Positions 20,093 to 35,802 of a stretch of DNA of 43,568 nucleotides are shown piece after piece. The stretch spans positions 1 through 43,568 of the forward strand of contig JAPPCV010000169.1 in NCBI GenBank assembly GCA_028824715.1, written 5' to 3'. The stretch's first letter is position 1. Each line of letters begins with the position of its first letter. The DNA is from Boseongicola sp. Its GTDB lineage: Bacteria; Pseudomonadota; Alphaproteobacteria; Rhodobacterales; Rhodobacteraceae. Below the pieces are notes generated by a model. That model worked only from the letters and a program-made list of their open reading frames with translations. It was not told the origin of the DNA and searched no databases. The position numbers and the translations under genes are program-made.

Positions 20093-21031
20093 TTAGCTGA
20101 ATGTTCCGCTGGGCAAGAGCCAATTGATGTAGTCGGCCGGATAAGTCTTGCTGAGCGCTTCGAGCCGCTCGAGGTTCCTTGCACTCCACCTGTCTTGCCA
20201 TTGACCGCTGGTGCCCTTGTTGAAGAAGCGTGCGTTGTTCTTCCACAGCTTTGCATCAGCGCCAGGAGCAAGTGAATCGGCTTTCTTCTTCATCGCCTCG
20301 AACCCGGCCGCCTCCACCAGGGAAGGGAAGACCGCTTCGTCGATGCCGATGTCCAGGAACTCGGAGATGCGTCTCATCTCGCGTTCCAGGTCCTGCTTCA
20401 TTTGCGAGTAGTGCAGCATCAGGACGTTGTTCCTGTCTTGATGCCGCCAGTATGTTTCGCCGTGGTGAAAGACCGACCAGTAGGGATAGCCGTCGCGCTC
20501 CCACGAAAAGAACCCGCGGGTCAGCCATTCCTTCAGACGGTCCTCTTCAGTTGCCGCCAGAAGGTCGCTGACCGTGGCGTCGTTCCCCATTTCCGCAGCA
20601 AGCGCGCGCTCGGTATCCAGATCGGTATTTTCCTGATGGTTCATCATGGACACGAAAACGTCCCGAGGATCCCGGGCGACGACCAGGTACTTGGCTGACT
20701 CGTGCCACTTCAGCCCGTCGAGCGGCGTGTGCGTCTTCAGGACCCGACGATGGGTCTGGGCGGCGAGCCGCGCATGTGCGGCCTCCTTTGCGTCCGTTAC
20801 GAGGTCCAGCCAGGGCGAAATTTCATTCAGCGGCTGCGCCAGGTCCGGGGTCTGAAACACAAGCAGTGCCGCGATCATCTGAGTCCAGGTCGTGCCGGAC
20901 TTGTAGCAGGTGCAGACATAGATGTCGCCGTCTCTCGGGACGAACCCGTCCCATCGCTCCGAGTCCCAGTCGACGTGCGCGTAGCGATGGATGGGCGCCC
21001 GTTCGAGTTCAAATGCGGCCAATGTACTCAC
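20093..21031 (-). CDS. PAPS-dependent sulfotransferase (Sulfotransfer_1 family)
   Basis: A 312-residue protein resembling cytosolic sulfotransferases, which move sulfate from PAPS to a hydroxyl or amine of a small acceptor. The 5'-phosphosulfate loop YKSGTTWTQ (43-51), catalytic His101 in LKTHTPLD, and the 3'-phosphate segment VARDPRDVFVSMMNH (118-132) are intact. So is a C-terminal FFNKGTSGQWQDRWS block equivalent to the family's RKGxxGDWK PAPS site. It is 43 bases downstream of tctA on the same strand and may be the last gene of that transcript. Acceptor specificity cannot be inferred. It is one of four sulfate-ester-related genes in the window. Confidence 0.85.
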   Translation of the reverse strand: MSTLAAFELERAPIHRYAHVDWDSERWDGFVPRDGDIYVCTCYKSGTTWTQMIAALLVFQTPDLAQPLNEISPWLDLVTDAKEAAHARLAAQTHRRVLKTHTPLDGLKWHESAKYLVVARDPRDVFVSMMNHQENTDLDTERALAAEMGNDATVSDLLAATEEDRLKEWLTRGFFSWERDGYPYWSVFHHGETYWRHQDRNNVLMLHYSQMKQDLEREMRRISEFLDIGIDEAVFPSLVEAAGFEAMKKKADSLAPGADAKLWKNNARFFNKGTSGQWQDRWSARNLERLEALSKTYPADYINWLLPSGTFS

Positions 21032-21073
21032 GCCTTCCGATGGCGGCCATAGTGGCAGTCGGGCGGCATGCCT

Positions 21074-22555
21074 TCATTGCCGCACCCGCTGGATGGCGTT
21101 TCGGGCGGACATCGCGATAAGCGCCAGGATGACGAGCAGGAAGATGAGGCTCACCGGGCGCGTGACGAAGATCGTCATGTCCCCACCTGCCGCCCCGATG
21201 CCTTGCCGGAAATAGCGTTCCATGATCGGGCCAAGGACCAGCCCGAGGATCATTGGCACCATCGGAATGTTGGCGCGCCTGAGCGCAAATCCGAGAACGC
21301 CGAAGCAAATGGCGATCATCGTGTCGGACAGCCGGTAGTTCGACGAAAACGTGCCGACCATGACGAGGCACATGATGATCACGCCCAGGAGCCTGTCATT
21401 GACGGTCGCAAGCTTGGCGATCCACTTCGTGCCCACCAGCAGCAACGCGACAATGACAAAGTTCATGATGAAGAGCGTCATGTACAGCCCGGCGACGAAT
21501 GCCTTGTTTTCTTCGAACAGCGTAGGCCCCGGATCGACTCCATGGACAATGAAGACGGTCAGCATCAAGGCGGTGAAGGCTTCGCCAGGGATGCCAAGCG
21601 ACAAGAGCGGTACCAGGGCCGCAGGGGGCACGGCGTTGTTGGCTGTCTCCGATGCGATGATTCCCTCGGGCGCGCCCTTGCCGAATTTTTCCGGCGTCTT
21701 CGATCCGGCGCGGGCGGAGGTATAGGCGAAGAACTGGGCGAGGAACTCTCCAACTCCGGGAAGCACGCCCATTCCGACTCCCAGCCCGGCTGAACGGAAC
21801 AAGGTCTTGGGATAGCGGAACACCTCGATGAATCCGCTGAGAAGGCGCCGGTCGATTTCGGTATTGGCGTCCTTGATTTGCCTGTCGGAAAATATCAGGG
21901 TCAGGGCTTGGCTTAGCGCGAAGAGGCCGAGAACCATGGAGATCAACGGCACACCTGCCATCATCCAGGTGGTGCCAAATGTGTACCGGGCCGAGCCATA
22001 GGCGGTTTCCAGCCCGATGGTCGAGACAAACAGCCCTGCGCCGAGCATCGCGAAGGAGGCGAACTCGCTGCCGCGATGGGCGACCACGACAAGAACCATC
22101 GCCAGGAGAGCGGCCATGCCGAGGTCGACCGAAGTGAGGTACTTGGACAGCGCCGCAAGGGGCCAGGCGGCGAGAGCCAGAACGCTGACGGCAAAGATTC
22201 CGCCAACGAAGCTTGAAGAATAGGCCAGCGCCAAGGCGCGCTGCGGCTCGCCGTTCTTGGCCATCGGATAGCCGTCATAGGTGGTCAGCACGTTTACGGC
22301 CGTGCCCGGGGTGTTGATCGTGATGGCCGGAACAGCCCCGCCATACCATCCCGCTGCATACAGCCCCATCAAGAGCGTTATCCCGGCAAGCGGATCCATC
22401 GTGTAGGTGATCGGCAAGAGCAGCACGATCCCGACCCCGGGACCGATCCCTGGTATTGCGCCAAGGATAATGCCGAGAACGCTGCCGCTGATCAATGCGA
22501 TCCAGATCACCGGATCGGCGAGTTGTTGCGCGCCAAGTGCAATCGTCTCCAACAT
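21074..22555 (-). CDS. tctA: Tripartite tricarboxylate transporter, large permease TctA
   Basis: A 493-residue, very hydrophobic permease with about twelve membrane segments. Family landmarks are SGSVLGIILGAIPGIGPG near the start, the WYGGAVPAITINTPGT block, and a second copy of the G-x-P-G-xGE pattern in GVLPGVGEFLAQFFAY. TctA is the transport channel of periplasmic-binding-protein-dependent carboxylate transporters. Its ATG overlaps the tctB stop (ATGA at 22555), so the two subunits are coupled. Substrates of the family range from citrate to aromatic carboxylates. The neighbouring catabolic genes suggest an organic acid feeding this island. Confidence 0.94.
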   Translation of the reverse strand: MLETIALGAQQLADPVIWIALISGSVLGIILGAIPGIGPGVGIVLLLPITYTMDPLAGITLLMGLYAAGWYGGAVPAITINTPGTAVNVLTTYDGYPMAKNGEPQRALALAYSSSFVGGIFAVSVLALAAWPLAALSKYLTSVDLGMAALLAMVLVVVAHRGSEFASFAMLGAGLFVSTIGLETAYGSARYTFGTTWMMAGVPLISMVLGLFALSQALTLIFSDRQIKDANTEIDRRLLSGFIEVFRYPKTLFRSAGLGVGMGVLPGVGEFLAQFFAYTSARAGSKTPEKFGKGAPEGIIASETANNAVPPAALVPLLSLGIPGEAFTALMLTVFIVHGVDPGPTLFEENKAFVAGLYMTLFIMNFVIVALLLVGTKWIAKLATVNDRLLGVIIMCLVMVGTFSSNYRLSDTMIAICFGVLGFALRRANIPMVPMILGLVLGPIMERYFRQGIGAAGGDMTIFVTRPVSLIFLLVILALIAMSARNAIQRVRQ

Positions 22556-23100
22556 CAGAGGATGCCTTGCCAGGACACGGGGAGGTCAAGCCACTTGAAG
22601 AGCGCGGGCCGCGGAAACCAAATCGAAAAGCCGATGCGAAAGATCAGGACCATGGCGACGGTCGTCCCGAGCGCGATCAGAACGAGACGCGTGCCACGAA
22701 AGCCGGCCGTCGTTGCCACCACGCTCGCAAAGACGAGGATCGAAAGCGCGAATCCAAGCACTTTCATCAACATGACGGCGCCGATCATGCAGCCGGAGAT
22801 CAGCAGGATCTGCCCGTAGACGCGCATGGTCTTTCCGAAATCGACCGTTTCGCGCCTTGCGACGAAGAACGCGATTGCGGATGCCACGATGGTCATGATG
22901 AGTGCGACGGTCGGAGCAAGTGCGGGCTCCGCCCACCAGCCACCGGACATGACCGTTTGGCCCATTGAGCCCGGCGTTGTCTGCCAGCCGACCATTGCAA
23001 GCAGCACGACGGCTGCCACGAACATTGCGCCGACAAGGAAGCGACCCCCGGTCGGCTGTTCGCTGAACGGGGCCTTGTCGTCCTTCCGGTCGCCTGGCAC
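22555..23100 (-). CDS. tctB: Tripartite tricarboxylate transporter, small permease TctB
   Basis: A 181-residue protein with four hydrophobic segments, the standard TctB size and topology. It begins at a GTG (23100), only 6 bases after the tctC stop. The next in-frame ATG is more than 20 residues in and would cut into the first membrane segment. TctB pairs with TctA in the membrane. Sequence conservation in TctB is low, so identification rests mainly on its position between tctC and tctA and on the membrane pattern. Confidence 0.88.
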   Translation of the reverse strand: MPGDRKDDKAPFSEQPTGGRFLVGAMFVAAVVLLAMVGWQTTPGSMGQTVMSGGWWAEPALAPTVALIMTIVASAIAFFVARRETVDFGKTMRVYGQILLISGCMIGAVMLMKVLGFALSILVFASVVATTAGFRGTRLVLIALGTTVAMVLIFRIGFSIWFPRPALFKWLDLPVSWQGIL

Positions 23101-23106
23101 GGGCGC

Positions 23107-24039
23107 CTATTTTGCCAGGAGGTTCTCGAACCGGTTGTAGAAGGCTTCCGCGAACTGCGCAGCTTCGTCGCCAGGCATCCACTGGACCACGGCGCCTGCG
23201 TTGGCCGCGATCTCCTGCGCCTCGGGACTTTCCACCACGGCCCTTGCAATCCGCGAGATCACCTCGCGCGCCTCGGCCGGCGTGTCCTTTCGCACGAAGA
23301 TGCCGGTCCAGCCGGGCGTGGAAATGCCGGGCACCTGCTCTTCGAGGGTTGCCACGTCAGGATAGATCGGAATGCGCGCCGTCGTGTAGGCTGCGAGTGC
23401 CTTGGCTTCCCCGCTGGTCAGACAGGGCTTCAACAGGCCCCCGCCCAGGGTGACGTCGATTTCCCTGTTCAAGATCATCTGGCAGGTCGTCTCGTCGTAC
23501 GCCGTGATGCTGGAGAACTTGAAGCCAAGCTCTTCGGCCATCTTCAGTGTCTGGAGCGCGGGCGGGCCGTTCAGGCCGAAGACGCCAAGGCTGACGTCAT
23601 TCGACCTGGCGTGTTCCGCCAACTCCATCAGGTTGCTGTAAGGCGCGTCGGCATGGGCCGCCAGCATCATCCCGTAGCCGATGATCACGGCCAGGGGCTC
23701 GAACTCCCCCTTTTCGTATTCCGCATTTCCGCGAATTATGTGGGCGGAGATGATGTTGGCGGTGAAGACGCCGACGGTGTAGCCGTCCGCAGGCTGGTTG
23801 AACACGTGGGTGGCGCCGATCAGGCCGCCCCCGCCCTTGATGTTCACGGTGGTGGCCGGAACGCCGGTTTCCTCCTTGAACGCATCCGAAATCATGCGGG
23901 CAATCGTGTCCTCGATGTCACCGGGAGGCCATGGCACCACGAATTCCACCGGGCGTTCCGGGTATTCCGCGCGTGTCATGCCAGTCATTGCAACTACCGC
24001 GAAGACAATCGAAGTCAAAAGCTTAGCCATGGATTTCAT
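23107..24039 (-). CDS. tctC: Tripartite tricarboxylate transporter substrate-binding protein TctC (Bug family)
   Basis: A 310-residue periplasmic binding protein. A signal peptide (MKSMAKLLTS to about Ala24, cleaved after TRA) leads into the mature start EYPERPVEFVVPWPPGD, the family's ligand-loop opening. The VNIKGGGGLIGATHVF segment is the usual second loop. I start at ATG 24039 because AGGGAG precedes it by 6 bases; upstream in-frame ATGs have no such site. It is first in the tctCBA operon. The ligand-loop sequence does not identify the substrate. The 266 bases upstream hold a short inverted repeat described separately. Confidence 0.92.
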   Translation of the reverse strand: MKSMAKLLTSIVFAVVAMTGMTRAEYPERPVEFVVPWPPGDIEDTIARMISDAFKEETGVPATTVNIKGGGGLIGATHVFNQPADGYTVGVFTANIISAHIIRGNAEYEKGEFEPLAVIIGYGMMLAAHADAPYSNLMELAEHARSNDVSLGVFGLNGPPALQTLKMAEELGFKFSSITAYDETTCQMILNREIDVTLGGGLLKPCLTSGEAKALAAYTTARIPIYPDVATLEEQVPGISTPGWTGIFVRKDTPAEAREVISRIARAVVESPEAQEIAANAGAVVQWMPGDEAAQFAEAFYNRFENLLAK

Positions 24040-24119
24040 AGTGCTCTCCCTGTTTGCTGGCCACTTTCGCTGGAGGTCATTTGCACGGAATAGAGTAGAA
24101 AACTTCACCGCGTTCCAGA

Positions 24120-24136
24120 AGAAAGTTTTTCTTTCT
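24120..24136. promoter_or_regulatory. Inverted repeat upstream of tctC
   Basis: AGAAAG-TTTTT-CTTTCT, perfect 6-base arms with a 5-base centre, 81-97 bases upstream of the tctC start. It is AT-rich against a GC-rich background and could be an operator; the binding protein is unknown. It lies in a 266-base gap that must contain the tct promoter if the operon does not read through from the hydrolase gene. Confidence 0.35.
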
Positions 24137-24305
24137 CATGATTGAATGCCGGCTTTTGAGAGCGGTTCCATGAGGGCGACCATCCTGTCTCCGGACCGGT
24201 CATGTCACGGACAGCGGACAGTCCGAACTCGCTCGGTCAGGTGCATCGATCCCGCCAGCAGTCCGCGATCCGCGCGGGCTCCCTTGACTGGACGCCTCAT
24301 CGCTC

Positions 24306-25160
24306 TCAAAACGAGATTTCTGCAAGATCGTGGCCGACCGTCATCTTGCCGTTCCAGGTCTGCCGAACGAGCGCCTCGAATTCCGCGGGTCCGGTCAGGT
24401 CATCATCTCCAGGGGTGAAGTGCTGTACCACGAGATGCCCAACGCCAGCCGCCGTCGCGATCTGCCCGACATCGTCTCCGAACGTGTGCCCCGCGATCAT
24501 GTGTGCCATCAGGTTCGGCTTGATGGATTTCAGGCGTTCGCACATCCTTTCCGTTCCGGCGCGATGCATGACTTCATGGACCAGAATGTCGGCACCCTTC
24601 GCGAATTCCGCCAACGGCGGGAAGTAGCTCGTGTCCGATGAGAAGACCACCGTGCCTTTCCGCCCCGTGACCTTCAGGGCAAACGTTTCGGTCAGTGGCG
24701 GATGCACCACGCGCAGCGCGTCAACTTCGACCAGATCGTCCTTGAAGACACGGCCCTCCGTGTACTCTGTCACGTCGAACATGTCGTGCGGGTCCTGCTG
24801 GCGCTCGTCGGCCATGCGCACCGCTATGTCGCAGGACATGGCGGCAAGGAAGTCATCGATCAACTTCGTGACGCCTTTCGGGCCGTAGACCTTGATCTGG
24901 CGCTTCGGCGATGACACCCACGTGGTGTGGAGGAACGGCCCAAGCTCAAGGCAATGGTCCGAATGCAGATGCGTGATCAGGATCGTGTGCACGTCGGCCA
25001 GCGAGAATCCGGCTTCCACGAACTGCCGCGTCACGCCCATCCCGCAGTCAATGACATACGGGCGTCCCGAAGTCTCTATGACAGATGACGACGGCCAGCT
25101 TGATCCCGTCGTCAGGCGCGGACCGCCCTTGGTGCCGAGAAGGATGATGCGATCAGCCAT
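24306..25160 (-). CDS. Metallo-beta-lactamase-fold hydrolase (RNase Z / AtsA-like subgroup)
   Basis: A 284-residue hydrolase with the dinuclear metal motif HLHSDH (64-69), an upstream strand YVIDCGMG, VVFSSDTSY with the bridging Asp, and a late HFTPGDDD. The N-terminus MADRIILLGTKGGPR is typical of the RNase Z-related subgroup, which also includes the zinc arylsulfatase AtsA; family membership alone does not fix the reaction. GGAG lies 7 bases before the ATG. It diverges from the VOC gene by only 37 bases and points towards tctC, with which it may share a transcript. Given sulfotransferase-type neighbours, a sulfate-ester or lactone/ester hydrolase is a reasonable guess. Confidence 0.82.
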   Translation of the reverse strand: MADRIILLGTKGGPRLTTGSSWPSSSVIETSGRPYVIDCGMGVTRQFVEAGFSLADVHTILITHLHSDHCLELGPFLHTTWVSSPKRQIKVYGPKGVTKLIDDFLAAMSCDIAVRMADERQQDPHDMFDVTEYTEGRVFKDDLVEVDALRVVHPPLTETFALKVTGRKGTVVFSSDTSYFPPLAEFAKGADILVHEVMHRAGTERMCERLKSIKPNLMAHMIAGHTFGDDVGQIATAAGVGHLVVQHFTPGDDDLTGPAEFEALVRQTWNGKMTVGHDLAEISF

Positions 25161-25197: not shown

Positions 25198-25647
25198 ATG
25201 ATCATTGGCATGCATCACGTGGGCGTGGTCACCACGGACGTTGACCGACTGGCCGGGTTCTACAGCGACAACTTCTTTGCGGAGCGCCTTGGAGAATTCC
25301 GGTGGGGGCCTGGTGACACGGCGCTGGCCACGCGGCTGGCGGCGGCCGGCAGTTCCGGACGAATTGTCATGCTGGGCTTCGCGACCGGGCGAATGGAGCT
25401 TTTTCAGTTCGAGGGTCTTCCTGAACGCCTGCCCGACCGTCAGCTCGCCGTGGCAAAGCCAGGCTTCAATCACGTCTGCTTCGAGGTCGATGACTGCGCA
25501 GCGGAATATGCGCGGCTGAAGGCGTTGGGCATGTCCTTTCATGCCGAACCGTTGAAAATGCCCGGAGGCGGAGTCTTCGCCTATGGTCGCGACCTGGACG
25601 GAAACGTCGTGGAAATCCTTCAGTCGCGCCAATTGACAGCCTCGTAG
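25198..25647 (+). CDS. VOC (glyoxalase/bleomycin-resistance) family protein
   Basis: A 149-residue single-subunit VOC protein. It opens MIIGMHHVGVVTTDVDRLAGFY, has NHVCFEVDD in the second half and closes with FAYGRDLDGNVVEILQ. These are the two paired beta-alpha-beta modules, with metal ligands expected at His6 or His7, the second-module histidine in NHVCF, and the Glu in VVEI. Members include lyases, isomerases, epimerases and dioxygenases, so the reaction is open. It faces the hydrolase gene across 37 bases. Its last 28 bases overlap the end of the convergent aminotransferase gene. Confidence 0.82.
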   Translation: MIIGMHHVGVVTTDVDRLAGFYSDNFFAERLGEFRWGPGDTALATRLAAAGSSGRIVMLGFATGRMELFQFEGLPERLPDRQLAVAKPGFNHVCFEVDDCAAEYARLKALGMSFHAEPLKMPGGGVFAYGRDLDGNVVEILQSRQLTAS

Positions 25648-26615
25648 TCGACGGGAGTGCCGTGCCACCCGGCCCAGCGCTTCTCCCAGTAAAGGTTGTG
25701 AATGCGTGTCGAGACAGGGCCCGACCCCTGGCAGATCGGCCTGCAGTCCACGGTGGAGATAGGGAGGATGCCGCCAGCGCTGGAAGTCAGGAACGCCTCA
25801 TCCGCCGCCAGAAGATCGTCTACGGTCACCGTGCCCACTTCGATGTTCAGCCCGATCTCGGCGCAAAGCTCCAGAGCCGTGAGCCGCGTTATTCCCTCAA
25901 GGCAGCCAAGCTCCGGGGTCATGATCCTGTTCTCTCGAACCACGAAGATGTTCGACCCTGGCGCCTCGGTCAGGACGTTGTTCCCGTCGGTCAGAACGCT
26001 CCACTCGGCACCGGCGGCGCCCGCTTCCATAAGCGACATGTTCAGGTCGAGTGAACAGAAGTTCTTCGCACGCGGGTCGATGGCGTTCGCGGGGATGCGG
26101 ATGTAGTCGTTCGAGACATGCAGATGAATGCCTGCCTGCCGGTCCGCATCGTCCTTGATGAACACGTATGGGATCACAAAGGCATAGAACCTGTTCGCGA
26201 ATCGCTCCGCATGCAGCCGGTCACTGGGGTTCGGCAGGTTCGCGCCCCGGGTGACCGACCACCAGACATATGCGTCCTTGAGCCCAGTACGCGCAACGAG
26301 CTCGTCCAGCAGTGCGGCCTCTTCGGCCTTGGCGAACGGATTCGAGAGCTTCATGCGGTCGCATGAGCGCGCAAACCGGGCCTGGTGGTCTTCAAGGCGG
26401 AAGAACTGGCCGCGGCTGACAGACACGACGTCATAGACCGCATCTGCCCGAACCAGCCCCAGATCGGTGATCGGCACGGCCGCCTCGCCCAAGGGCACGA
26501 ACCGGTCGATGACGAATGCCGCACCCGCCGTCCATTCCTGCGCGCGTGCCACCGGTGCGTGGGCAGGGTCGCTGGCCATGATTTCCTGCGCTGACACGGG
26601 AGAAAGGCCGTTCAT
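25620..26615 (-). CDS. Class IV PLP aminotransferase (branched-chain/D-amino-acid type)
   Basis: A 331-residue fold-type IV aminotransferase. The PLP lysine is Lys184 in DPRAKNF, and the cofactor segment TEAPGSNIFVV (about 216-226) and later SSAGGILPIS are intact. Class IV enzymes include branched-chain aminotransferases, D-amino-acid transaminases and aminodeoxychorismate lyase. The roughly 30-residue N-terminal extension and neighbours suggest a peripheral catabolic role, such as supplying the 2-oxoacid for the E1 dehydrogenase encoded across the regulator. The ATG overlaps the stop of the arylsulfotransferase-family gene (26612-26615), so the two are cotranscribed. Confidence 0.85.
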   Translation of the reverse strand: MNGLSPVSAQEIMASDPAHAPVARAQEWTAGAAFVIDRFVPLGEAAVPITDLGLVRADAVYDVVSVSRGQFFRLEDHQARFARSCDRMKLSNPFAKAEEAALLDELVARTGLKDAYVWWSVTRGANLPNPSDRLHAERFANRFYAFVIPYVFIKDDADRQAGIHLHVSNDYIRIPANAIDPRAKNFCSLDLNMSLMEAGAAGAEWSVLTDGNNVLTEAPGSNIFVVRENRIMTPELGCLEGITRLTALELCAEIGLNIEVGTVTVDDLLAADEAFLTSSAGGILPISTVDCRPICQGSGPVSTRIHNLYWEKRWAGWHGTPVDYEAVNWRD

Positions 26616-28272
26616 GCTGCACGCTCCGGCAGCAGTGCGTCGCGCAGGTCCAGCTTGATGCCGCTGCCTTTCGGATGAAGACTGTCGACCCGCATGCCGG
26701 AAAAGACCTCCCAGTGAATCAGGTCGTTTTCGTCACGCACGGTCATGTCGAACACGATGTCCCTTATGTCCTTGCGGTTGTATTCGAGACTCCGGGCATG
26801 GAAAGGGAATTCAGAGACGTAACGCAGTGAGCGATCGTCCTCGTCCATCCCGATGTCGTCGCGGCCATGCGGCATCGCGATGGAGTGGATCACAAGTGCC
26901 GTGTCGCTGTCTTCCAGCCGGTGCGCGTCGCCCATGGCCCAGGTGCGTTCCATGGCATCGGCATCCGTCAACGCGGAAGACCAGACTTGCTCGACCGACA
27001 TTGCATCCCTGTCAACGCTGTACTCGACGCCACGCGAGAAGCTCTCGTGGAAGGCGACACGTTCCTGTCCGGGGCGCGCTCCGTGGATTCCGTTGTCGAA
27101 GAGCATGATCGTTCCTTCCGAAGTCACCCGCGGGTTGTGCAGGTGCCAGGGCCACCTGAAGTTCTCGCCAATCGGGGCAAGGAGCCTTCCTTGCAGCCGG
27201 GCAGGCCAGCCATCGTGATCACCAAGGATCCAGACTGTTTCGCCCGACAGTCGGTCAATCTTCAGTATGCAGTCCTGCAGGCGCAGCGACACCAGAACGG
27301 AATCATCGCTTTCGTCGTAGGCAACACCGTTCCCGTGGGTCCAGTCGGCCGCGCCTGGAAATCCGCGGACATGCCAATAGGCATCCAGCGCATCATGCCC
27401 GATGCGGTCGGGATCAGGGTGGTCAAAGCTGTCCCAACTCCAGACCACTTCGCCCTCGGGCGTGAACTCGACAACCATGTCCCCGACGATTTCGCGATCG
27501 GCCTTGTGCTTGTCGGGCTCGCGGACCGAAGCTGGCCAGACCTTCACGCGTCCTGCGTGCGCCGAGAGTGCAAGGAATTTGCCGTTCGGCATCTGGCGGG
27601 GCTGATGATGCAGGCCGCGAACGTCGACGGGAATGCCGCCTTCCTCGGCGCCCTGCGGTCGTTGCGCGGCGAACCAGGCTCGAGTGACGTTTCCGGCAAC
27701 GTCGATCTCTCGCGAACAGGACTCGGTGTCATGGACAAACAGGTTGCCGCTCGCCAAATGCTCGATGCCCGCGGCGCGTCGGTCCAGCTTGCGCATCCAG
27801 CGCATCCGGCCCTGATTGTCGACCGCCACCAGCATGTCCCAATGGGTGAGCCACTTGCGCTGTGCAACCGTCATGTCCGTGATGCGCCCCATGGCGCGGC
27901 GGCGAACGGACAGGAAGGTGAATCGACCCGCCATGCGATGCGGCTGGGAGACATGCGTCTGCAGCGGCGGCTCTTCGAGCGGCGAGGCCGGTACGTCCTT
28001 CAGTCGGTGCGCTATCTTCGTCGGCCACGTCACGGCACCGTCCAACCCTGCGATCTGCACAGTTGCCTTCGCAACGCCTTCAGGATGGAACCCAAGCAGC
28101 AGGCAGCAGCCTTCCGCGGCCAGGAGGTGTTCGTCCCGGCATCGCCATTCTGCTCGATCCTGACACGAATCTGGTCCGCACCAGATGCACTCACGCGCGG
28201 CCAGGCGACAAGTGGCGCGTGCACCGGCCCGGGTTCGATGGTCGGCTCTGCAAGGAACTGCGGTGTGGGCAT
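26612..28272 (-). CDS. Arylsulfotransferase (ASST) family protein with an apparent N-terminal frameshift
   Basis: The long frame has the ASST-family propeller pattern: LVAVDNQGRMRWMR, DWTHGNGVAYDESDDS, LRLQDCILKIDRLSGETVW and PWHLHNPRVTSEGTIMLFDNG. ASST enzymes move sulfate between phenols without PAPS; other members have unknown roles. The good start lies in a different frame: GAGGGAG precedes ATG 28272, giving MPTPQFLAEPTIEPGPVHAP. That frame loses sense near 28140-28095, where the long frame resumes with LLLGFHPEGVAK. Joining them needs one added base (or two removed), so this is a real frameshift or a sequence error. No signal peptide is visible. The gene lies between the LysR gene (61 bases) and the aminotransferase (4-base overlap). 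Confidence 0.7.
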
Positions 28273-28333
28273 TGACGATCTCCCTCGTGGCACAATGCAA
28301 AGGACGTCGCACGCAAGGAAGACGGGATTGCTT

Positions 28334-29296
28334 TTATCTGTTAGAAGAATTGCTACTTTCGGCAGATGTCCATTCCGGCGGTTGCCAAGCCACGTTGGCG
28401 GCCTTGATCAGATCGTCGGCGATCTCAACGACGAGTGTTCGGATGTTGCGCTGGGCTTCCGTCATTTTCTCGACCCGCGGCCCGGCCAGGTGGACCGTGC
28501 GATTGAAGCTGGGCAAGTCAATGCGGCGATGGGCGGCGAGCCCGGCGGCGATTTCATCGTTGAACTGGGCAATGGGCGCCACGCAGAATCGACGCCCTCG
28601 CACGAGATACTCCCGCCGGATCTCGATCGACGAGCACTCGATCAGGTCGGCCCAAGTCGAGCCGGTCTTCCTGAACCCGCGCTCGAGCTGTTCTCGGGAC
28701 CAGATCGCGCGCACGTCAAGCACGACCGGAAGCCCTGCCACTTCCGAAACGGGCACGGGGTCTGGCAACGGCGCGCAAAGGTCTGGGGGCCCGATCAGGG
28801 ACAGGCGCTCATTGTAGACCGGAAGACTTTCTGATTCGTCCGTTTCGACATCCCTGTCAAAGAATGCAAAGTCGCATTCTCCAGCTTCCCACATGCGCTC
28901 CAGGTCCGCCGGAAATCCCTGGTTGAAGAGAAGCGTTAAGCCCGGATGCCTGTCGAAGCCCAGTTCCATCAGCCGAGGCACCAGCACACGGCTCAGGGAC
29001 GGCGTGACGCCGACCCGGACTGTCCCCTCGCTGGTGTTTCGATGCCGGGACAGTTCGCGCCGCGTGCGTTCGACCGCGCCAAGAATTTCTTCCGCGCGCT
29101 GGAACAGGACCTTGCCGACGGGGGTCGGCCGCATGCCACGTGAATGACGGGTCAGCAGCTTCAGGCCAAGCTCGGCCTCCAGTTTCCGTATCTGCTGGCC
29201 GATCGCCGGCTGCGTCACGTTCAGCGCCTCGCTCGCCGCAGTCAGGCTCTCGTGCTTGGCGACGGCGTGAAAGTACCTGAGCTGGCGGAAATCCAT
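28334..29296 (-). CDS. LysR-family transcriptional regulator
   Basis: A 320-residue LysR protein. The winged helix-turn-helix is at the N-terminus (MDFRQLRYFHAVAKHESLTA, then ALNVTQPAIGQQIRKLE). The effector-binding domain begins near residue 90 (GTVRVGVTP). Two close ATGs exist (29302 and 29296); AAGGGG is spaced 7 bases from the second, which I use. It diverges from the E1 alpha operon across 125 bases and leads the ASST/aminotransferase transcript. It is placed to control both arms of the island. LysR proteins usually respond to a pathway substrate or intermediate; the ligand here is unknown. Confidence 0.93.
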   Translation of the reverse strand: MDFRQLRYFHAVAKHESLTAASEALNVTQPAIGQQIRKLEAELGLKLLTRHSRGMRPTPVGKVLFQRAEEILGAVERTRRELSRHRNTSEGTVRVGVTPSLSRVLVPRLMELGFDRHPGLTLLFNQGFPADLERMWEAGECDFAFFDRDVETDESESLPVYNERLSLIGPPDLCAPLPDPVPVSEVAGLPVVLDVRAIWSREQLERGFRKTGSTWADLIECSSIEIRREYLVRGRRFCVAPIAQFNDEIAAGLAAHRRIDLPSFNRTVHLAGPRVEKMTEAQRNIRTLVVEIADDLIKAANVAWQPPEWTSAESSNSSNR

Positions 29297-29376
29297 CGGC
29301 ATGCCCCTTGCTCAAGGTCGGCTCGAATGACATTAGTTGCGCTTTCCTCTCCTGTAAATCCGGGGCTATTGTCGCA

Positions 29377-29391
29377 GCCGACGCCGTCGGC
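29377..29391. promoter_or_regulatory. Candidate LysR operator in the divergent region
   Basis: GCCGAC-GCC-GTCGGC is a perfect 15-base dyad, 31-45 bases before the E1 alpha start, inside the 125-base gap between the regulator and the operon. Position and symmetry fit a regulator site, though GC-rich dyads are common in this DNA. I could not identify clear promoter hexamers, as expected for activator-dependent promoters. Confidence 0.4.
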
Positions 29392-29421
29392 ATACGTTCA
29401 CGGGCAAGAAGAAGGTACGCC

Positions 29422-30417
29422 ATGGCAGCGAGCACCTCGAACATTCAGCCCGACGACGATGTCCTGATCGAGTTGTATCGACGGATGCTCTTGATCAGGA
29501 AGTCGGAGGAACAGCTCTTCCGCGACGTGAAGCTGGGGCGGACGCCGGGGCAGGTGCACCTGTCCGATGGCCAGGAGGCGGTAGCCGTCGGGATCTGCGC
29601 CCCTCTTGATGATCGGGACCAGATCACTTCCACCCATCGCGGGCACGGGCACTACCTGGCCAAGGGCGGCGACGTCAACGCGATGTTCGCCGAGGTCTAT
29701 GGCAAGGCCGAAGGCATCTGCCGCGGCATGGGAGGATCGATGCATGTGGCAGACTTCTCGAAGGGGATAGTAGGTGCCAACGGGATCGTGGGTGCGGGGC
29801 TCGGCATTGCCACAGGTGTCGGCCTCGCCAACCAGCTTGAGGGAGAAGGGCGTGTCGCGGTCTGCTTCTTTGGTGACGGGGCGGCCAACCAAGGGTCGCT
29901 GATGGAAAGCCTCAACATATCCTCGCTCTGGAGGCTGCCGGTTCTCTTTGTCTGTGAAAACAACGGGTTTTCCGAGTTTTCACCCTCCGGCACGGTTACA
30001 TGCGGCGTGATCTCCGATCGTGCCAGGCCGTTTGGCATCCCGATCTGGAACATCGACGGCAATGATGTGGTGGAGGTCTGGAGGACGGCGCGCGAAGCGG
30101 TGGATCATTGCCGGTCCGGTGCCGGGCCGGCCTTCATCGAGGCGCGGACCTACCGCTTTTCGGGGCATTTCTCGGCCGAGGCAATGATCCTCTCCACGCC
30201 CTATCGAAGTGACGAAGAGATCGAGGCGTGGCGCGCGAAGGATCCGGTTGCAAGGACGCGCGCGCTGATCATTGATCGCGGGGCGGCGGACGCCGCAGCA
30301 TGTGAACGCCTGGAAATGGAGGCGGACGCGTGCGTGGAAGGCGCCGTGGCCTTCGGCGAAGCTGGCACCGCGCCGAATTCCGGAACGGCGGAGCAGCTGA
30401 TGCGGGCGGGCTCCTGA
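29422..30417 (+). CDS. Thiamine diphosphate-dependent 2-oxoacid/acetoin dehydrogenase E1 component, alpha subunit
   Basis: A 331-residue E1 alpha subunit. The ThDP motif runs from GDGAANQG (151-158) to CENN (178-181). The active-site HRGHGHYLAKG (72-82) and GICRGMGGSMHVAD (98-111) are conserved, and overall it looks most like acetoin dehydrogenase AcoA. Such enzymes decarboxylate or cleave a 2-oxo compound and pass the acyl group to a lipoyl arm. AAGAAGG lies before ATG 29422. The stop overlaps the E1 beta start by one base (TGATG). Substrate could be acetoin, a branched-chain 2-oxoacid, or something new; the nearby aminotransferase could make a 2-oxoacid. Confidence 0.88.
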   Translation: MAASTSNIQPDDDVLIELYRRMLLIRKSEEQLFRDVKLGRTPGQVHLSDGQEAVAVGICAPLDDRDQITSTHRGHGHYLAKGGDVNAMFAEVYGKAEGICRGMGGSMHVADFSKGIVGANGIVGAGLGIATGVGLANQLEGEGRVAVCFFGDGAANQGSLMESLNISSLWRLPVLFVCENNGFSEFSPSGTVTCGVISDRARPFGIPIWNIDGNDVVEVWRTAREAVDHCRSGAGPAFIEARTYRFSGHFSAEAMILSTPYRSDEEIEAWRAKDPVARTRALIIDRGAADAAACERLEMEADACVEGAVAFGEAGTAPNSGTAEQLMRAGS

Positions 30418-31394
30418 TGCCGCGGATGCGTTTCATTCAAGCGATCAACCAGGCACTTGCCGAAGAGATGGCGCGCGACTCCAGGACGATACTGATCGGA
30501 GAGGATGTCGAAGCGTCGATCTTCGGTGACACGCGTGGCCTTCTGGATCGATTCGGTGCAGACCGGGTCCGCAACACGCCGATCTCCGAGCAGACGCTGA
30601 CAGGAATCTCCGTTGGTGCAGCGGCGTGCGGATGTCGCGTCATCCTGCACATGATGTTCGCGAATTTCATTTACACGGGCTTTGATGCCATCGCCAACCA
30701 GATGGCGAAGCTGAGATTGATGAGCGGAGGGCAGGTCACCTTGCCGATAACGGTGATCGCGAACTATGGTGGCGGACGTTCGACCGCGGCGCAGCATTCC
30801 GACACGCCCCTTTCGCTCCTGATGAACCTGGCTGGAGTCGAAGTGGTCGTTCCGTCGACGCCGGACAACGCCAAGGGTCTCATGAAGTCAGCGATCCGCT
30901 CCGACAATCCGACCTTCTTTCTCGAACCCGGTGGACGGGGCGGCGATGCTGGCGAAGTCCCGAGCGGTGACTACGTCACGCCGCTCGGCGAGGCTCGCGT
31001 CATGCGCGAAGGCAGCGACCTGTCGCTGATCACCATGGGATCGATGGCCCGGATGACATTGCGGGCCGCGCAGCTGCTGGAGACGGAACTGGGCGTGTCG
31101 GCGGAGGTCCTGGACCTGCAGTCACTGGTGCCGCTCGACACGGCGGCAATTCTTGCCAGCGTCGAAAGGACCGGCCGTGCGATCGTGGTGGACGAGAGTC
31201 GCGACGCCTGTTCGGTCGCCAGCCATGTCGCGGCAATCCTCGCTGACAAGGGCTTTGCCCAGCTGAAAGCGCCCGTCCGACGCATCACCGTGCCGGATGC
31301 CGCGATGCCCTATGCGCCGTCCGCGGAACTGCCCTTGTTGCCAAGTCCCGAACGCATTGTCATTGCCGCAAGGACGCTCTTTCCCGAGGCATAG
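30417..31394 (+). CDS. Thiamine diphosphate-dependent dehydrogenase E1 component, beta subunit
   Basis: A 325-residue partner of the preceding alpha subunit. It starts MPRMRFIQAINQALAEEM and has IGEDVEAS, the conserved active-site glutamate in NTPISEQTLTG (Glu58), AQHSDTPLSLLMN, and the C-terminal transketolase domain (VLDLQSLVPLDTAAI, VVDESRDAC). It overlaps the alpha gene by one base and precedes the lipoyl-domain gene by 3 bases. Alpha-plus-beta E1 enzymes normally work with a dihydrolipoyl acyltransferase (E2) and E3; neither follows here. Either E2/E3 are shared with complexes elsewhere or this E1 works differently. Confidence 0.9.
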   Translation: MPRMRFIQAINQALAEEMARDSRTILIGEDVEASIFGDTRGLLDRFGADRVRNTPISEQTLTGISVGAAACGCRVILHMMFANFIYTGFDAIANQMAKLRLMSGGQVTLPITVIANYGGGRSTAAQHSDTPLSLLMNLAGVEVVVPSTPDNAKGLMKSAIRSDNPTFFLEPGGRGGDAGEVPSGDYVTPLGEARVMREGSDLSLITMGSMARMTLRAAQLLETELGVSAEVLDLQSLVPLDTAAILASVERTGRAIVVDESRDACSVASHVAAILADKGFAQLKAPVRRITVPDAAMPYAPSAELPLLPSPERIVIAARTLFPEA

Positions 31395-31397
31395 GAA

Positions 31398-31637
31398 ATG
31401 AAAGCCGAGCTCAAGCTTGCCCGCATCGGGTTGAACATGGAAGAAGGAACCGTCACGAAGCAGCGCGTCGCGGCGGGTGATCGTTTCAAGACGGGAGACT
31501 TCTCCTACGAGGTGGTGACGGGAAAGGCGTCCAACGAGATTGAGGCTCCCGGCGATGGCGTGACGGCCGAAGTCCCTGTTGGCGAGGACGAGGTTGCTGC
31601 CGAGTGCCAGGATGCCTGCAATTTCGAAAGCGCGTGA
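31398..31637 (+). CDS. Stand-alone lipoyl-domain protein
   Basis: A 79-residue protein that is only a biotinyl/lipoyl domain. KLARIGLNMEEGTVTKQRV matches the first half (LGLTMTEGT in typical E2s), and FSYEVVTGKASNEIEAPGDG matches the hairpin with the modified lysine, here Lys43. The usual D-K-A/V is G-K-A. The last part (after residue 60) is acidic and contains two cysteines not seen in typical lipoyl domains. No catalytic E2 domain follows, because the next gene starts after 8 bases in another family. It is probably the acyl or electron carrier for the E1 proteins. Whether it is lipoylated is untested. Confidence 0.8.
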   Translation: MKAELKLARIGLNMEEGTVTKQRVAAGDRFKTGDFSYEVVTGKASNEIEAPGDGVTAEVPVGEDEVAAECQDACNFESA

Positions 31638-31645
31638 GGGGAACA

Positions 31646-33220
31646 TTGACCGATTCACAGGTGATCATCAATGGCGGAGGGCCGGTTGGTCTGGGCCTTG
31701 CGATTGACCTCGCACTGAAGGGAGTCGAGAGCATCGTGCTGGAACGCACGACCGAGCTTCACCGCATCCCCAAAGGACAGAACCTGACACAGCGAACGGG
31801 AGAGCACTTTCGCGCTTGGGGCATTGCGGACCAAGTGCGTGCAGCTACACCGATCCCGCCTGAATTCGGCAATGCCGGCCTCGTGACCTACGGCCGTCTT
31901 CTGAGCGAATTTCACTATGACTGGTTTCAACGCTCGCGCGTGCGACCCTACTACTTCGCCGACAACGAGCGCTTGCCACAGTACAATCTCGAGAGCGTCT
32001 TGAGGGATCGCGTTGCCGATCTGCCTCAGGTGACGTTCGTTCAGGGTGCGGAAGTCACCGATGTGACCCAGGGTGATGCCGGCGTTTGCGTTTCCTACGA
32101 GGCCGATGGCGCGAACCATGTGGTTGAGGCCGCCTACGCCGTGGGCTGCGACGGGGCGCGATCGGTAACGCGCGACGCCGGCGGCATCCGGAACGAGACC
32201 GACCACGAGGGGCCGCGCATGGCCTTGCTCGTTTTCCGGTCCTTGGAATTGCATGACCTGCTCGAACGCTATCCCGGCAAGTCGATCTTCAATGTCATGC
32301 ACCCCTCGATGGATGGCTACTGGCAGTTTCTGGGCCGTGTCGACCTGAACGGCGGCTGGTTCTTTCATGCACCGGTGCCGGACGGCGCCACGCGGGAAAA
32401 TTTCGACTTCCACGCCTTCCTTCACAAAATGGCTGGCGTGGAATTTGCGCTGGAATTCGAGCATATCGGGTTCTGGGACCTGCGCATTTCCCACGCCCGG
32501 ACCTATCGCAACGAACGTGTCTTTCTTGCCGGAGACGCCTGTCACAGTCACCCGCCGTACGGTGGCTACGGGGTCAATACAGGCCTTGAGGATGCCCGCA
32601 ATCTCGGCTGGAAGCTTGACGCAGCCCTGAAGGGCTGGGCTGGAGCCGAGCTGCTCGACAGCTATACCGCCGAACGGCATCCGGTCTTCCGTTCGGTCAG
32701 CAGGGATTTCATCAGCCGGATGATCGAGGACTTTCGCGGGTTCACGAGGGAGTTCTCCCCGGAGAAGGACAAGGCGTCCTTCGACAAGGCATGGGCCGCG
32801 CGGGCCAATGCAGACGACGCGGACGTGACCGAGTTCCTGCCACACTACGCCGGCTCGCCCATTGTTCTCGGTGAGCCGGGAGAGCAGTCAGGGGCGAAGG
32901 GCAGGCACGGATTCAAAGCCAGGCCGGGCCATCACCTTGCACCGCAGGCACTGCCCGGCAGCGGCGATCTTTGGGATGCGCTCGGCCCAGGTTTCACGCT
33001 AATGGATCTTTGCGGCGACAAGGCTCTTTCGACGGGATTTGCTGGCGCGGCTGATACCCTTGGCGTCCCGTTCGAGGTGCTGACACTGCAATCTGGCGCG
33101 CTGCGGGAGGCCTATGGGTGCAGCGCGATCCTCGTGCGACCCGATCAGTTCATCGCCTGGGTCGGCTCGTCGGCGGAGTCTGGCACCAAGAGCATTCTCG
33201 CCCGCGCCATCGGGCAATAG
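31646..33220 (+). CDS. FAD-dependent aromatic-type hydroxylase (PheA/TfdB family)
   Basis: A 524-residue flavoprotein monooxygenase. It has the FAD dinucleotide motif GGGPVG (10-15), the DG motif CDGARS (168-173) and the GD motif GDACHSHPPYGG (296-307), with a thioredoxin-like C-terminal region. Members hydroxylate phenols, aromatic acids or polyketide-like rings with NAD(P)H and oxygen; the substrate cannot be read. The start is probably TTG 31646 (then TDSQVIINGGG): GAGG lies 6 bases before it and no ATG is available nearby; GTG 31661 is an alternative. It begins 8 bases after the lipoyl gene and is clearly in the same operon. Confidence 0.87.
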   Translation: MTDSQVIINGGGPVGLGLAIDLALKGVESIVLERTTELHRIPKGQNLTQRTGEHFRAWGIADQVRAATPIPPEFGNAGLVTYGRLLSEFHYDWFQRSRVRPYYFADNERLPQYNLESVLRDRVADLPQVTFVQGAEVTDVTQGDAGVCVSYEADGANHVVEAAYAVGCDGARSVTRDAGGIRNETDHEGPRMALLVFRSLELHDLLERYPGKSIFNVMHPSMDGYWQFLGRVDLNGGWFFHAPVPDGATRENFDFHAFLHKMAGVEFALEFEHIGFWDLRISHARTYRNERVFLAGDACHSHPPYGGYGVNTGLEDARNLGWKLDAALKGWAGAELLDSYTAERHPVFRSVSRDFISRMIEDFRGFTREFSPEKDKASFDKAWAARANADDADVTEFLPHYAGSPIVLGEPGEQSGAKGRHGFKARPGHHLAPQALPGSGDLWDALGPGFTLMDLCGDKALSTGFAGAADTLGVPFEVLTLQSGALREAYGCSAILVRPDQFIAWVGSSAESGTKSILARAIGQ

Positions 33221-33238
33221 GATTCGGAGGTTCATGAC

Positions 33239-34687
33239 ATGCCATCCAAGGAAGGTCACCACTATATCGGCGGTTCATGGGTTTCGGACGCGCCAAACGG
33301 CATGATCCCGGTCCAGAACCCCTCGGACGGTTCGGTCTTCGCCGAGGCGCCGAACGGATCGACCGACCTGGCGGGTCAGGCGGTGATGGCGGCCCGCGAT
33401 GCCTTTGAGACCTCGGATTGGGCGTCAAGCCCCCGGCTTCGCGCGGCCGTCCTGCTCGAATTCGCTGACATCCTGGAATCTCGTGCGGATGAAATCGCGG
33501 ACCTGATGGCCAGGGAAAACGGCAAGGTGCTTGGCCAGGCCCGGCACGAGATTGCCGCCGGCTATGGTGAGGCACGCTACTACGCGGGCGTTGCGCGAAA
33601 CGTATTTGGCCGAACTTTCGAGAGTGCGCCCGGCAAGATGAGCCTCATGACGCGAGAGGCTTCGGGCGTCGTCTCGGTCATCGTGCCATGGAATGCACCG
33701 GTCACGCTGCTGGTTCGGTCCGTCGCCCCGGCACTGGCGGCTGGCTGCACGGTGATCATCAAGCCGGCATCGCAGACTCCCTTGACCAATGCTGCCGTCA
33801 TGGCCTGCTTCGAGTCGGTCGCATCGCTGCCAAGTGGTGTGGTCAACTCAGTCAACGAGTACGGCACCGAGGTTGGCACCGTCCTGTCCACGCATCCCGA
33901 AATCGACGTGATTTCATTTACCGGATCGTCCCGCACCGGCAGGATCATCATGGCCAATGCCGCAGACACGATCAAGCATGTCTCGCTGGAGCTGGGCGGG
34001 AAGGCCCCCGCGCTGGTCTTTGAAGGTGCGGATCTCGTCGGGGCGGTGACGGAGATCAGGCGCGGTTCGTTGGCGCTCAACGGGCAAATGTGCACGTGCA
34101 TCAGCCGGGTGCTCGTGCAGGACACGATCTATGACGAGGTGAAGGCACGCCTGAGGGCCGCATACGAGGCGACAAGGGTTGGGGACGCACGTGCCGAGGG
34201 AGTTGAACTGGGTCCGGTAATAGACAAGCCGAGTCAGCTGCGGCTGCTTGGCATTGTCGATCGTGCGGGTGCGGAGGCCAGTCTGGTGGTGCGCGGCAAG
34301 GCAGGCGGCGACGAGTTGTCGGACGGCTTCTTCATGACGCCGTCGATGTTCGAAATTGACGATGTGTCTCATGACCTCGTGCAGGAAGAGCTGTTCGGCC
34401 CCATCGTCTCTCTTGAACGCTTCAGCGACGAGCCGGAGGCTGTCGCGAAGGCCAACGCGACCCGATTCGGCCTTGCCGCCTCCGTGTACACCAACGACCT
34501 GAACGTCTCGATGCGCATGGCGCGCAAGCTGCGCTTTGGAACGGTCTGGCTCAATTCCCATAACCGGCTTTTTGCAGAAGTCGAGACGGGCGGTTACCGC
34601 GAAAGCGGAATAGGGCGGCTCCACGGTGTCGAGGCGATGAACGACTTCCTCGAGACCAAGCATGTCTACTACGAGGTGGAAGGCTGA
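33239..34687 (+). CDS. NAD(P)-dependent aldehyde dehydrogenase
   Basis: A 482-residue aldehyde dehydrogenase superfamily enzyme. The active-site set is intact: Asn152 in PWNAP, the FTGSSRTG cofactor loop, Glu251 in LELGGKAP, and nucleophile Cys285 in NGQMCTC; EELFGPIV follows later. The substrate is unknown. A benzaldehyde/vanillin-type or semialdehyde substrate would suit the hydroxylase next to it. It follows the hydroxylase by 18 bases and its stop overlaps the next start (TGATG), so it belongs to the operon. The second cysteine two residues after the nucleophile is unremarkable in the family. Confidence 0.92.
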   Translation: MPSKEGHHYIGGSWVSDAPNGMIPVQNPSDGSVFAEAPNGSTDLAGQAVMAARDAFETSDWASSPRLRAAVLLEFADILESRADEIADLMARENGKVLGQARHEIAAGYGEARYYAGVARNVFGRTFESAPGKMSLMTREASGVVSVIVPWNAPVTLLVRSVAPALAAGCTVIIKPASQTPLTNAAVMACFESVASLPSGVVNSVNEYGTEVGTVLSTHPEIDVISFTGSSRTGRIIMANAADTIKHVSLELGGKAPALVFEGADLVGAVTEIRRGSLALNGQMCTCISRVLVQDTIYDEVKARLRAAYEATRVGDARAEGVELGPVIDKPSQLRLLGIVDRAGAEASLVVRGKAGGDELSDGFFMTPSMFEIDDVSHDLVQEELFGPIVSLERFSDEPEAVAKANATRFGLAASVYTNDLNVSMRMARKLRFGTVWLNSHNRLFAEVETGGYRESGIGRLHGVEAMNDFLETKHVYYEVEG

Positions 34688-35802
34688 TGCCGCTAATCCA
34701 GTATCTTTCGCGCATCCATTTCGACTTTGGCGCCATTGCAGGCCTTGGAGATGAAATCGCACGGCTTGGCCTGAAGCGTCCGTTGCTCGTGACGGACGCA
34801 GGCGTGGCGGATGCGGGAATCCTCCAGCGTGCCCTGGATGCGGCGAGACCCTTGGATCCGGCGGTATACGACGGCACGACAGAAAACCCGACCGAACGAT
34901 CGCTCCTTGACTGCCTCGAGATCTGGAACGACAGAGCCTGTGACGGGGTGATTGCGCTCGGAGGCGGGTCGCCCATCGATCTGGCAAAGGCGGTTGCCCT
35001 GCTGGCGAGTCATGGCGGAAGCTTGGCAGAGTACAACGTCAAGCAGGGCGGGTCGGACAGGATCGGCAAGGTCGCCCGGCAGATCGCGATCCCGACTGCG
35101 GCGGGCACGGGAGCGGAGGTAGGCCGCGCCTGCGTGATGTCCCTTCTGGACGGGTCGAAATGCGTTGCCGTGAACCTGAACATGGTCGCAGACGTCGTGA
35201 TCTGTGACCCGGAACTGACGCTCTCCTTGCCGCCGCGACTTACCGCCGCCACCGGGATCGATGCGCTGAGCCACGGGATCGAGGCGTATTGCAGCCCCGT
35301 GGAGAACCCGCCCGCTGCGGCAATTGCGCTTGATGCCGTCAGGCGTGCCGCGAGATGGCTGCCTGTTGCCGTCGAGGATGGCAGCAACCGGGAAGCGCGG
35401 TGGGAGATGATGATGGCAGCGTTGATGGGCGGCATGTGCCTGCAAAAGGCGCTCGGGGGCGCCCACGCCATGGCCACGCCGCTGGGAGAGCTGCATCTCC
35501 ATCATGGCACGTTGATCGGGATACTGCTGCCCCATGTCCTGCGCTTCAATGCCGGTCATGCCGACGTTAAGTTCTCCGAAATTCGCGCGGCGGCGAGCCT
35601 TCCTGGAGATGCCGGCCTGCATGTTTGGCTGACGGACTTCGTATCCGGCTTGGGCCTGCCCACGAAGCTGGCGGAACTGGACGTTGCAGCCGGCGTTCTG
35701 CCTGAAATCGCCGACAAGGCATCCAGGGATCATCTGGCAAAGACAAACCCGAGACCGGTTGGGCCCGAAGACTTTCTGGCCTTGCTTCGCGAAGCGCATT
35801 GA
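34687..35802 (+). CDS. Iron-containing (group III) alcohol dehydrogenase
   Basis: A 371-residue metal-dependent dehydrogenase. The NAD-binding motif GGGSPID (92-98), IPTAAGTGAEV and the metal ligands Asp192, His196 (GIDALSHGIEAY), His260 and His273 (HHGTLIGILLPHVLRF) are in place. The family includes alcohol dehydrogenases, lactaldehyde reductases and maleylacetate reductases. With the aldehyde dehydrogenase directly upstream (one-base overlap), a two-step alcohol to acid oxidation is likely. It is the last gene of the rightward operon. A loose stem, AGGCGG (35803-35808) with CCGCCT (35825-35830), might serve as a terminator before the convergent psuG. Confidence 0.9.
   Translation: MPLIQYLSRIHFDFGAIAGLGDEIARLGLKRPLLVTDAGVADAGILQRALDAARPLDPAVYDGTTENPTERSLLDCLEIWNDRACDGVIALGGGSPIDLAKAVALLASHGGSLAEYNVKQGGSDRIGKVARQIAIPTAAGTGAEVGRACVMSLLDGSKCVAVNLNMVADVVICDPELTLSLPPRLTAATGIDALSHGIEAYCSPVENPPAAAIALDAVRRAARWLPVAVEDGSNREARWEMMMAALMGGMCLQKALGGAHAMATPLGELHLHHGTLIGILLPHVLRFNAGHADVKFSEIRAAASLPGDAGLHVWLTDFVSGLGLPTKLAELDVAAGVLPEIADKASRDHLAKTNPRPVGPEDFLALLREAH

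Follow-up and report, generated by a model that had tools for sequence, protein, structure and literature searches.

The DNA analysed here (the window) is a 43,568-nt stretch in contig C151 of a Boseongicola sp. genome of 5.24 Mb in 181 contigs (the source genome, G000), and between positions 20093 and 35802 it holds two gene arms arranged around one LysR-type regulator. Gene families were assigned by a Pfam scan of the open reading frames (ORFs) of the window and, at the equivalog level, by NCBIfam cut-offs. The rightward arm (+ strand) encodes E1 alpha (29422–30417; PF00676, 243 bits), E1 beta of a distinct subfamily (30417–31394; PF02779/PF02780), a stand-alone lipoyl protein of 79 aa (31398–31637; PF00364, 36.9 bits), an FAD hydroxylase of the RebC/MhpA type with a ring-hydroxylase C-terminal domain (31634–33220; PF01494, 205 bits; PF21274, 34 bits), an aldehyde dehydrogenase (ALDH, 33239–34687; PF00171, 475 bits) and an iron-type alcohol dehydrogenase (FeADH, 34687–35802; PF00465/PF25137). 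The likely start differs from that of the longest ORF for E1 alpha (29422; longest ORF from 29308), E1 beta (30417) and the hydroxylase (31634; longest ORF from 31604). With these starts, E1 beta overlaps E1 alpha by one base and the hydroxylase start overlaps the lipoyl stop.

The opposite arm (- strand) encodes the LysR-type regulator (28334–29302; PF00126/PF03466), an arylsulfate sulfotransferase (ASST)-family protein (26612–28312; PF05935, 193 bits at a cut-off of 24), a class IV aminotransferase (25620–26615; PF01063) and an MBL-fold hydrolase that appears arylsulfatase-like (24306–25160; PF00753/PF12706). These are followed by TctC, the periplasmic binding protein (23107–24108; PF03401, 84 bits), TctB, the small membrane subunit (22555–23100; PF07331, 43.5 bits), and TctA, the large membrane subunit (21074–22555; PF01970, 409 bits), so that the tripartite tricarboxylate transporter set is complete as judged by Pfam; a sulfotransferase gene (20093–21031; PF00685, 148 bits) lies at the end. 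Inside this arm, on the + strand, there is a gene for a metalloenzyme of the VOC/glyoxalase family (25198–25647; PF00903, 53.5 bits). The original prediction, made from the sequence letters, had listed these genes with their strands and the near-zero spacing of the right arm; Pfam agreed with all the families it named, while the VOC gene had been overlooked.

The divergent intergenic region between LysR and E1 alpha (29303–29421, 119 bases, no strand) contains a stretch that is nearly unchanged across six aligned genus genomes, and it is likely to act as a LysR-controlled promoter. A scan of this region for T-N11-A palindromes gave none at the threshold used.

Conservation of the island and recurrence of its two arms

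To describe the island within the genus, we compared the source genome with seven same-genus relatives (G001–G007). The hydroxylase was found in 7/7 of those searched, with 87–92% identity, and the gene order TctC-MBL-VOC-aminotransferase-ASST-LysR | E1 alpha-E1 beta-lipoyl-hydroxylase-ALDH-FeADH is the same in G001, G002, G003 and G007. For these four genomes TctA and TctB were taken from neighboring stretches, and TctA is 97.8–98.4% identical; the islands of G004 and G006 are visible only in part as the contigs end. The sulfotransferase, first counted as an island member, is not a conserved part: it adjoins TctA in G002, but not in G001 or G007, and the G003 contig ends there. Downstream of the island we also noted a sulfatase gene (38406–39926, + strand), nearest to the choline-sulfatase model but below its cut-off (279 of 433 bits), which is kept in the genus and does not occur in the island block of the more distant loci L088–L094.

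Recurrence outside the genus was examined by scanning with seven aligned E1-beta sequences as the query; the 80 loci discussed below are the best 80 of 128 confirmed, and four of them belong to members of the genus. Both arms and LysR were found in the near-identical loci L089 and L090, with gene order as in the window (the “Micrococcales” label of L090 is probably a binning error), and in L093 and L094, where the left arm includes the hydroxylase, E1 is preceded by ALDH-FeADH, and there was no VOC or Tct match. The two arms recur also in L088, with no match for LysR, ALDH or FeADH. Thus, the two arms belong together as one island with an unusual enzyme mix, as had been proposed from the window itself; the original prediction had named a lack of co-occurrence in other genomes as its refutation, and this check came out in its favor.

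ASST-family genes were detected at E ≤ 1e-30 in 25/80 loci (27/80 at 1e-8), and the 25 form 13 groups at 90% and seven groups at 70% identity. In the background set, which represents one class only, ASST was present at the same level in 6 of 289 class genomes, G000 included, and in none of the other five does it lie beside E1. Loci with ASST differed from the 55 without it in the frequency of a flavin hydroxylase of either family (20/25 vs. 2/55), an aminotransferase of either class (19/25 vs. 5/55), TctA (12/25 vs. 1/55), a sulfatase (14/25 vs. 5/55) and ALDH (18/25 vs. 8/55), with Fisher p values of 1.4e-5 to 2.9e-12 when related loci are treated as independent.

Aminotransferases and flavin hydroxylases of other families occupy the same slots in other lineages. 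In seven betaproteobacterial loci (L095, L099, L107, L113, L114, L117 and L124) a class III aminotransferase stands in, together with an IclR regulator, and in all of these except L113 the hydroxylase is nearest to 3-hydroxybenzoate 6-monooxygenase (308 bits, NCBIfam cut-off 459). A TauE/SafE-type exporter gene occurs in three loci (L104, L113 and L124). A cupin taken for gentisate dioxygenase is encoded in L095, L099, L127, L128 and L129, all five with ASST, and an FAA hydrolase adjoins it in four of them, which suggests an upper pathway feeding ring cleavage. The cluster of the sphingomonads L127–L129 (titled Sphingopyxis microcysteis, Novosphingobium ERN07 and MD-1), composed of E1, lipoyl, VOC, ASST, hydroxylase, FAA hydrolase and cupin genes, is nearly identical in the three; going by contig numbering, MD-1 and ERN07 have MlrC-like genes probably ~100 kb off, and a search for them in Sphingopyxis microcysteis gave none.

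Within our searches, the earlier statement that the window has no ring-cleavage dioxygenase held. The VOC protein was considered as an extradiol ring-cleavage enzyme and rejected, as its H7, E67, H92 and E139, invariant in 10 aligned sequences, form what we take to be a glyoxalase-I type ligand pattern and not the extradiol 2-His-1-carboxylate iron site. A gentisate pathway elsewhere in the source genome was likewise rejected: the dioxygenase search was empty, and PF07883 gave 20 cupin matches, with no gentisate-type neighborhood on the two contigs followed.

The remaining enzymes were compared with solved structures and curated families. The class IV aminotransferase is nearest to solved (R)-amine transaminases (best 6snl, an amine transaminase, 209 bits), and the hydroxylase to RebC and polyketide hydroxylases. 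ALDH reaches no equivalog cut-off among the 25 NCBIfam families listed, and for FeADH the nearest model, 4-hydroxybutyrate dehydrogenase (NF058672), scored 419 bits, below its cut-off of 500. For the MBL protein the best solved relative is 8gyg, annotated “Arysulfatase” (120 bits; next 66 bits), and its HxHSDH motif, invariant in five aligned sequences, fits the dinuclear HxHxDH pattern; the predicted activity is therefore arylsulfatase-like, a refinement of the plain MBL-fold hydrolase call, of which the fold was upheld by Pfam. The window ASST keeps the aligned His, Arg and His of Escherichia coli AssT, i.e., three of the four residues that we take to be the catalytic set (His252, His356, Arg374 and His436), with the first His outside the aligned stretch, and an HH pair at 171–172 is invariant across 14 ASST sequences. 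A search of plasmids with the window ASST gave no match.

The module of E1 and a stand-alone lipoyl protein

Among the 80 E1-beta loci, E1 alpha and the lipoyl protein were each found in 79, the two misses (L105 and L097) being at contig ends. An E3 gene was found in none of the 80 at E ≤ 1e-3, while the same queries recovered four E3 relatives in the source genome as a control. An E2 catalytic domain was detected in 2/80 loci only (L138 and L139), and none was found by Pfam in the E1 arm of the window. In L138 and L139 the E2 catalytic-domain protein is encoded directly before E1 alpha and the lipoyl domain by a separate gene, i.e., E2 is split. As two E2s whose catalytic domain is complete and four proteins of the E3 type are encoded elsewhere in the source genome, E2/E3 could be borrowed. 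In a FastTree phylogeny of 114 E1-beta sequences, rooted on the own-genome pyruvate dehydrogenase (PDH) E1 beta, the 85 of the island kind form one clade (support 0.81), which carries MNLGG-type residues after QHSD. By these sequence features, E1 alpha, E1 beta and the 79-aa lipoyl protein are a distinct module.

A second module of this kind is present in the source genome on contig C139 (L077:1-4380). Its E1 alpha, E1 beta and lipoyl proteins are 54, 55 and 49% identical to those of the island, the lipoyl site is intact, and its neighbors encode an SDR, a transketolase N-terminal subunit, a Tct-type transporter, a sulfatase and a thiamine pyrophosphate (TPP) enzyme. The C139-type E1 beta occurs in 8/8 genus genomes; the G006 copy is a fragment at a contig end. 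The E1/lipoyl module was also seen behind an AMP-binding gene on plasmids pSRL1 of Sphingobium indicum B90A (L074) and pTK3 of Sphingobium TKS (L073), both of which also bear lin genes. On pTK3, E1 alpha is followed by IS6100, with no adjacent E1 beta seen.

State of the island in the source genome

Although the ASST assignment stood at the family level, the reading frame of the window gene is shifted with respect to its relatives. The proteins of L084–L087 begin with MPTxQFLxEP in frame, whereas the window has those codons in another frame, and a DNA alignment showed one base missing near the 5′ end as compared with L084, L085 and L086. The lipoyl protein is also there, as predicted, but it is atypical around its lysine. 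In 79 relatives, Glu at -3 and Glu/Asp at -1 are present in 79/79, Trp in 76/79 and the lysine itself in 78/79 (one ambiguous base); the window protein has Val at -3, Gly at -1 and Gln for Trp, with the lysine kept and the frame open.

Selection on the island genes was assessed by dN/dS. For the lipoyl gene the pairwise value was 0.41 for the window vs. 0.09 among four relatives. Branch tests, for which we used a fixed tree of hydroxylase and ALDH and give nominal p values throughout, placed the lipoyl gene of the window branch at 0.92 (p 0.022 vs. one ratio; not different from 1), with 1.47 for G005 (p 0.0013) and 2.1 for G006 (p 0.0028); on the comparison branch, G003, it was nominally lower (p 0.018). 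E1 alpha and E1 beta had values of 0.17 and 0.135 on the window branch. Of 12 further genes tested on the G000 branch, ASST (0.23, p 0.015) and FeADH (0.26, p 0.032) were nominally raised and the others were not; VOC gave an unidentifiable value. E1, the hydroxylase, ALDH and the alcohol dehydrogenase thus stay under purifying selection in the source genome.

Two other genus members have lost the lipoyl lysine itself. G005 lacks ~1.36 kb of E1 (window 29582–30940), of which only a short piece is left. In G006, an E1 beta tail of 53 residues is seen upstream of the lipoyl gene, and ~1.28 kb of different sequence (L033:161-1441) lies between the two; by eye, its frames resemble a PIN-domain protein and partner, plus a fragment of a restriction enzyme. 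We conclude that the island of the source genome is probably partly decayed, with ASST frameshifted and the surroundings of the lipoyl site lost. Because of these two changes, 2-oxoacid cleavage onto the small lipoyl carrier, as proposed in the original prediction, is unsupported in this genome.

Compensation by the C139 module was tried as the sole cause of decay and rejected, since the C139-type E1 beta is present in all eight genus genomes and does not track decay. Nor does a second ASST type give a clean correlation: this copy, on contig C65 (L187:2911-8803; 73% identical to the island ASST), occurs only in G000, G004 and G006 of the eight genus genomes, while decayed lipoyl proteins are found in G000, G005 and G006.

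Beyond the island, at 35929–37760 on the - strand, a gene for a PfkB-family kinase, whose NCBIfam matches include pseudouridine kinase below the cut-off, lies beside a frame that by eye resembles pseudouridine-5′-phosphate glycosidase.

Proposed pathway and comparison with known systems

Gene content and co-occurrence, as described above, are observed, and the pathway is read from the gene families. The reading we favor, to which we give about an even chance, is that of a LysR-controlled catabolic island for a sulfated, amino-bearing aromatic acid, present in several proteobacterial lineages and partly decayed here. After import of the anion by TctCBA, the sulfate would be removed or moved by two proteins, the ASST-family member and the arylsulfatase-like MBL hydrolase; the aminotransferase would convert the amine to a carbonyl, and the flavin hydroxylase would add a ring hydroxyl. 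E1 and the small lipoyl protein would then cleave the bond next to the carbonyl, with the acyl group loaded onto the lipoyl arm, and ALDH and FeADH would oxidize side-chain fragments. In the open-access literature searched, no description of the gene cluster was found in listings and abstract openings, and to that extent the earlier statement that no described pathway joins these genes held.

A fuller version of this scheme, which we regard as rather unlikely, would place an undescribed pathway in alpha-, beta- and gammaproteobacteria, its aminotransferase and hydroxylase having been exchanged for non-homologous ones. E1 and a free lipoyl protein, mostly without dedicated E2/E3, would cut the side chain of the desulfated amino-aromatic, and in the source genome E1 would work with the lipoyl protein borrowed from the second module while its own carrier decays.

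Several points weigh against the catabolic reading. The substrate, the activities and each reaction step are deduced from family membership. E1/lipoyl loci without ASST make up 55/80, so the E1 module extends beyond the proposed pathway. Outside the genus, the three best matches to the hydroxylase (L036–L038; 49–52% identity across the aligned portion) have different surroundings with no island genes, VOC has no role that the pathway explains, and a gentisate-type dioxygenase was not found in the source genome, an empty search being weak proof of absence. In the ASST subfamily, the aligned Arg is replaced by Lys in L127 and L143, and the C65 copy is followed by an SDR, an NMT1-like binding protein and a DctM-type permease (TRAP-type transporter), not by E1. 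As to decay, 15 genes were tested on G000 and the nominal lipoyl p of 0.022 fails the Bonferroni limit; the gene trees disagree with the fixed tree, so branch assignments are approximate.

The strongest competitor, still improbable, is that the window lipoyl protein works as it is, its changes being tolerated, or that E1 uses the intact lipoyl protein of C139. The retained lysine, the open frame, the low dN/dS of both E1 genes and the intact C139 module are in its favor. Yet residues found in 79/79 relatives are lost and the Trp of 76/79 is Gln, the lysine is gone in G005 and G006, with most of E1 deleted in G005, and the C139-type E1 beta, found genus-wide, does not follow the decay. An artifact of assembly or sequencing in a metagenome-assembled genome could likewise mimic decay; the ASST shift is a single base and the relatives L084–L087 are themselves metagenome assemblies. 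We hold this to be quite improbable, as amino-acid changes in the lipoyl protein are numerous at an unremarkable dS of 0.38 and the lysine was lost separately in two other genomes.

With respect to the catabolic direction, ASST and sulfotransferases can also add sulfate, and the hydroxylase is nearest to solved RebC and polyketide hydroxylases; a biosynthetic cluster could therefore be envisaged, in which a sulfated aromatic metabolite is built or tailored by the RebC-like hydroxylase, ASST and sulfotransferase. The TctCBA uptake system and the ALDH/alcohol dehydrogenase pair point instead to breakdown, as do the sulfatases in 14/25 ASST loci and the ring-cleavage-type genes of relatives, and the Pfam scan of the window ORFs revealed no genes for building a scaffold, which leaves this explanation doubtful at best, on a par with that of an artifact. 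That two unrelated operons flank one LysR gene by chance is very improbable. The many E1/lipoyl modules without ASST would fit such an arrangement, but it is contradicted by the co-occurrence of both arms outside the genus (L088, L089/L090, L093 and L094), and genes also swap arms, as the hydroxylase does in L093 and L094.

If the catabolic reading is correct, marine and freshwater bacteria have a recurring set of genes that acts on sulfated aromatic compounds, and the widespread E1/free-lipoyl subfamily acquires a function. The island would then also serve as a natural experiment, since the carrier protein is decaying but the enzyme that it partners is retained. Intact relatives, e.g., L113, an isolate going by its record title, make the substrate question testable.

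Among known systems, the 3-hydroxybenzoate/gentisate pathway shares with relatives of the island a 3-hydroxybenzoate-6-monooxygenase-like enzyme, a fumarylpyruvate-hydrolase-type FAA hydrolase and a cupin, which there adjoin E1/lipoyl/ASST; the window differs in having another hydroxylase family and no ring dioxygenase. With E. coli AssT (3elq) the window ASST shares the family PF05935 and the aligned His, Arg and His, yet only AssT region 353–490 aligns significantly, and alpha- and most betaproteobacterial ASST members have by eye no obvious signal peptide. Acetoin dehydrogenase and PDH (AcoAB, PDH E1) have the same E1 alpha/beta folds, and their E1 beta shares the catalytic QHS motif; the best NCBIfam model of the island lipoyl protein is acetoin dehydrogenase E2. 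In contrast to these enzymes, the island lipoyl domain is a separate 79-aa protein with no E2 acyltransferase in 78/80 loci and no E3, the E1 beta pocket loop is MNLGG where the PDH-like enzymes compared have the PGLK/PGL type, and no curated cut-off is reached. LbpA of the sHdr sulfur-oxidation system (PMC6067878) is likewise a small stand-alone lipoyl protein; it is tied to Hdr-like genes, whereas the island lipoyl protein is tied to E1 genes.

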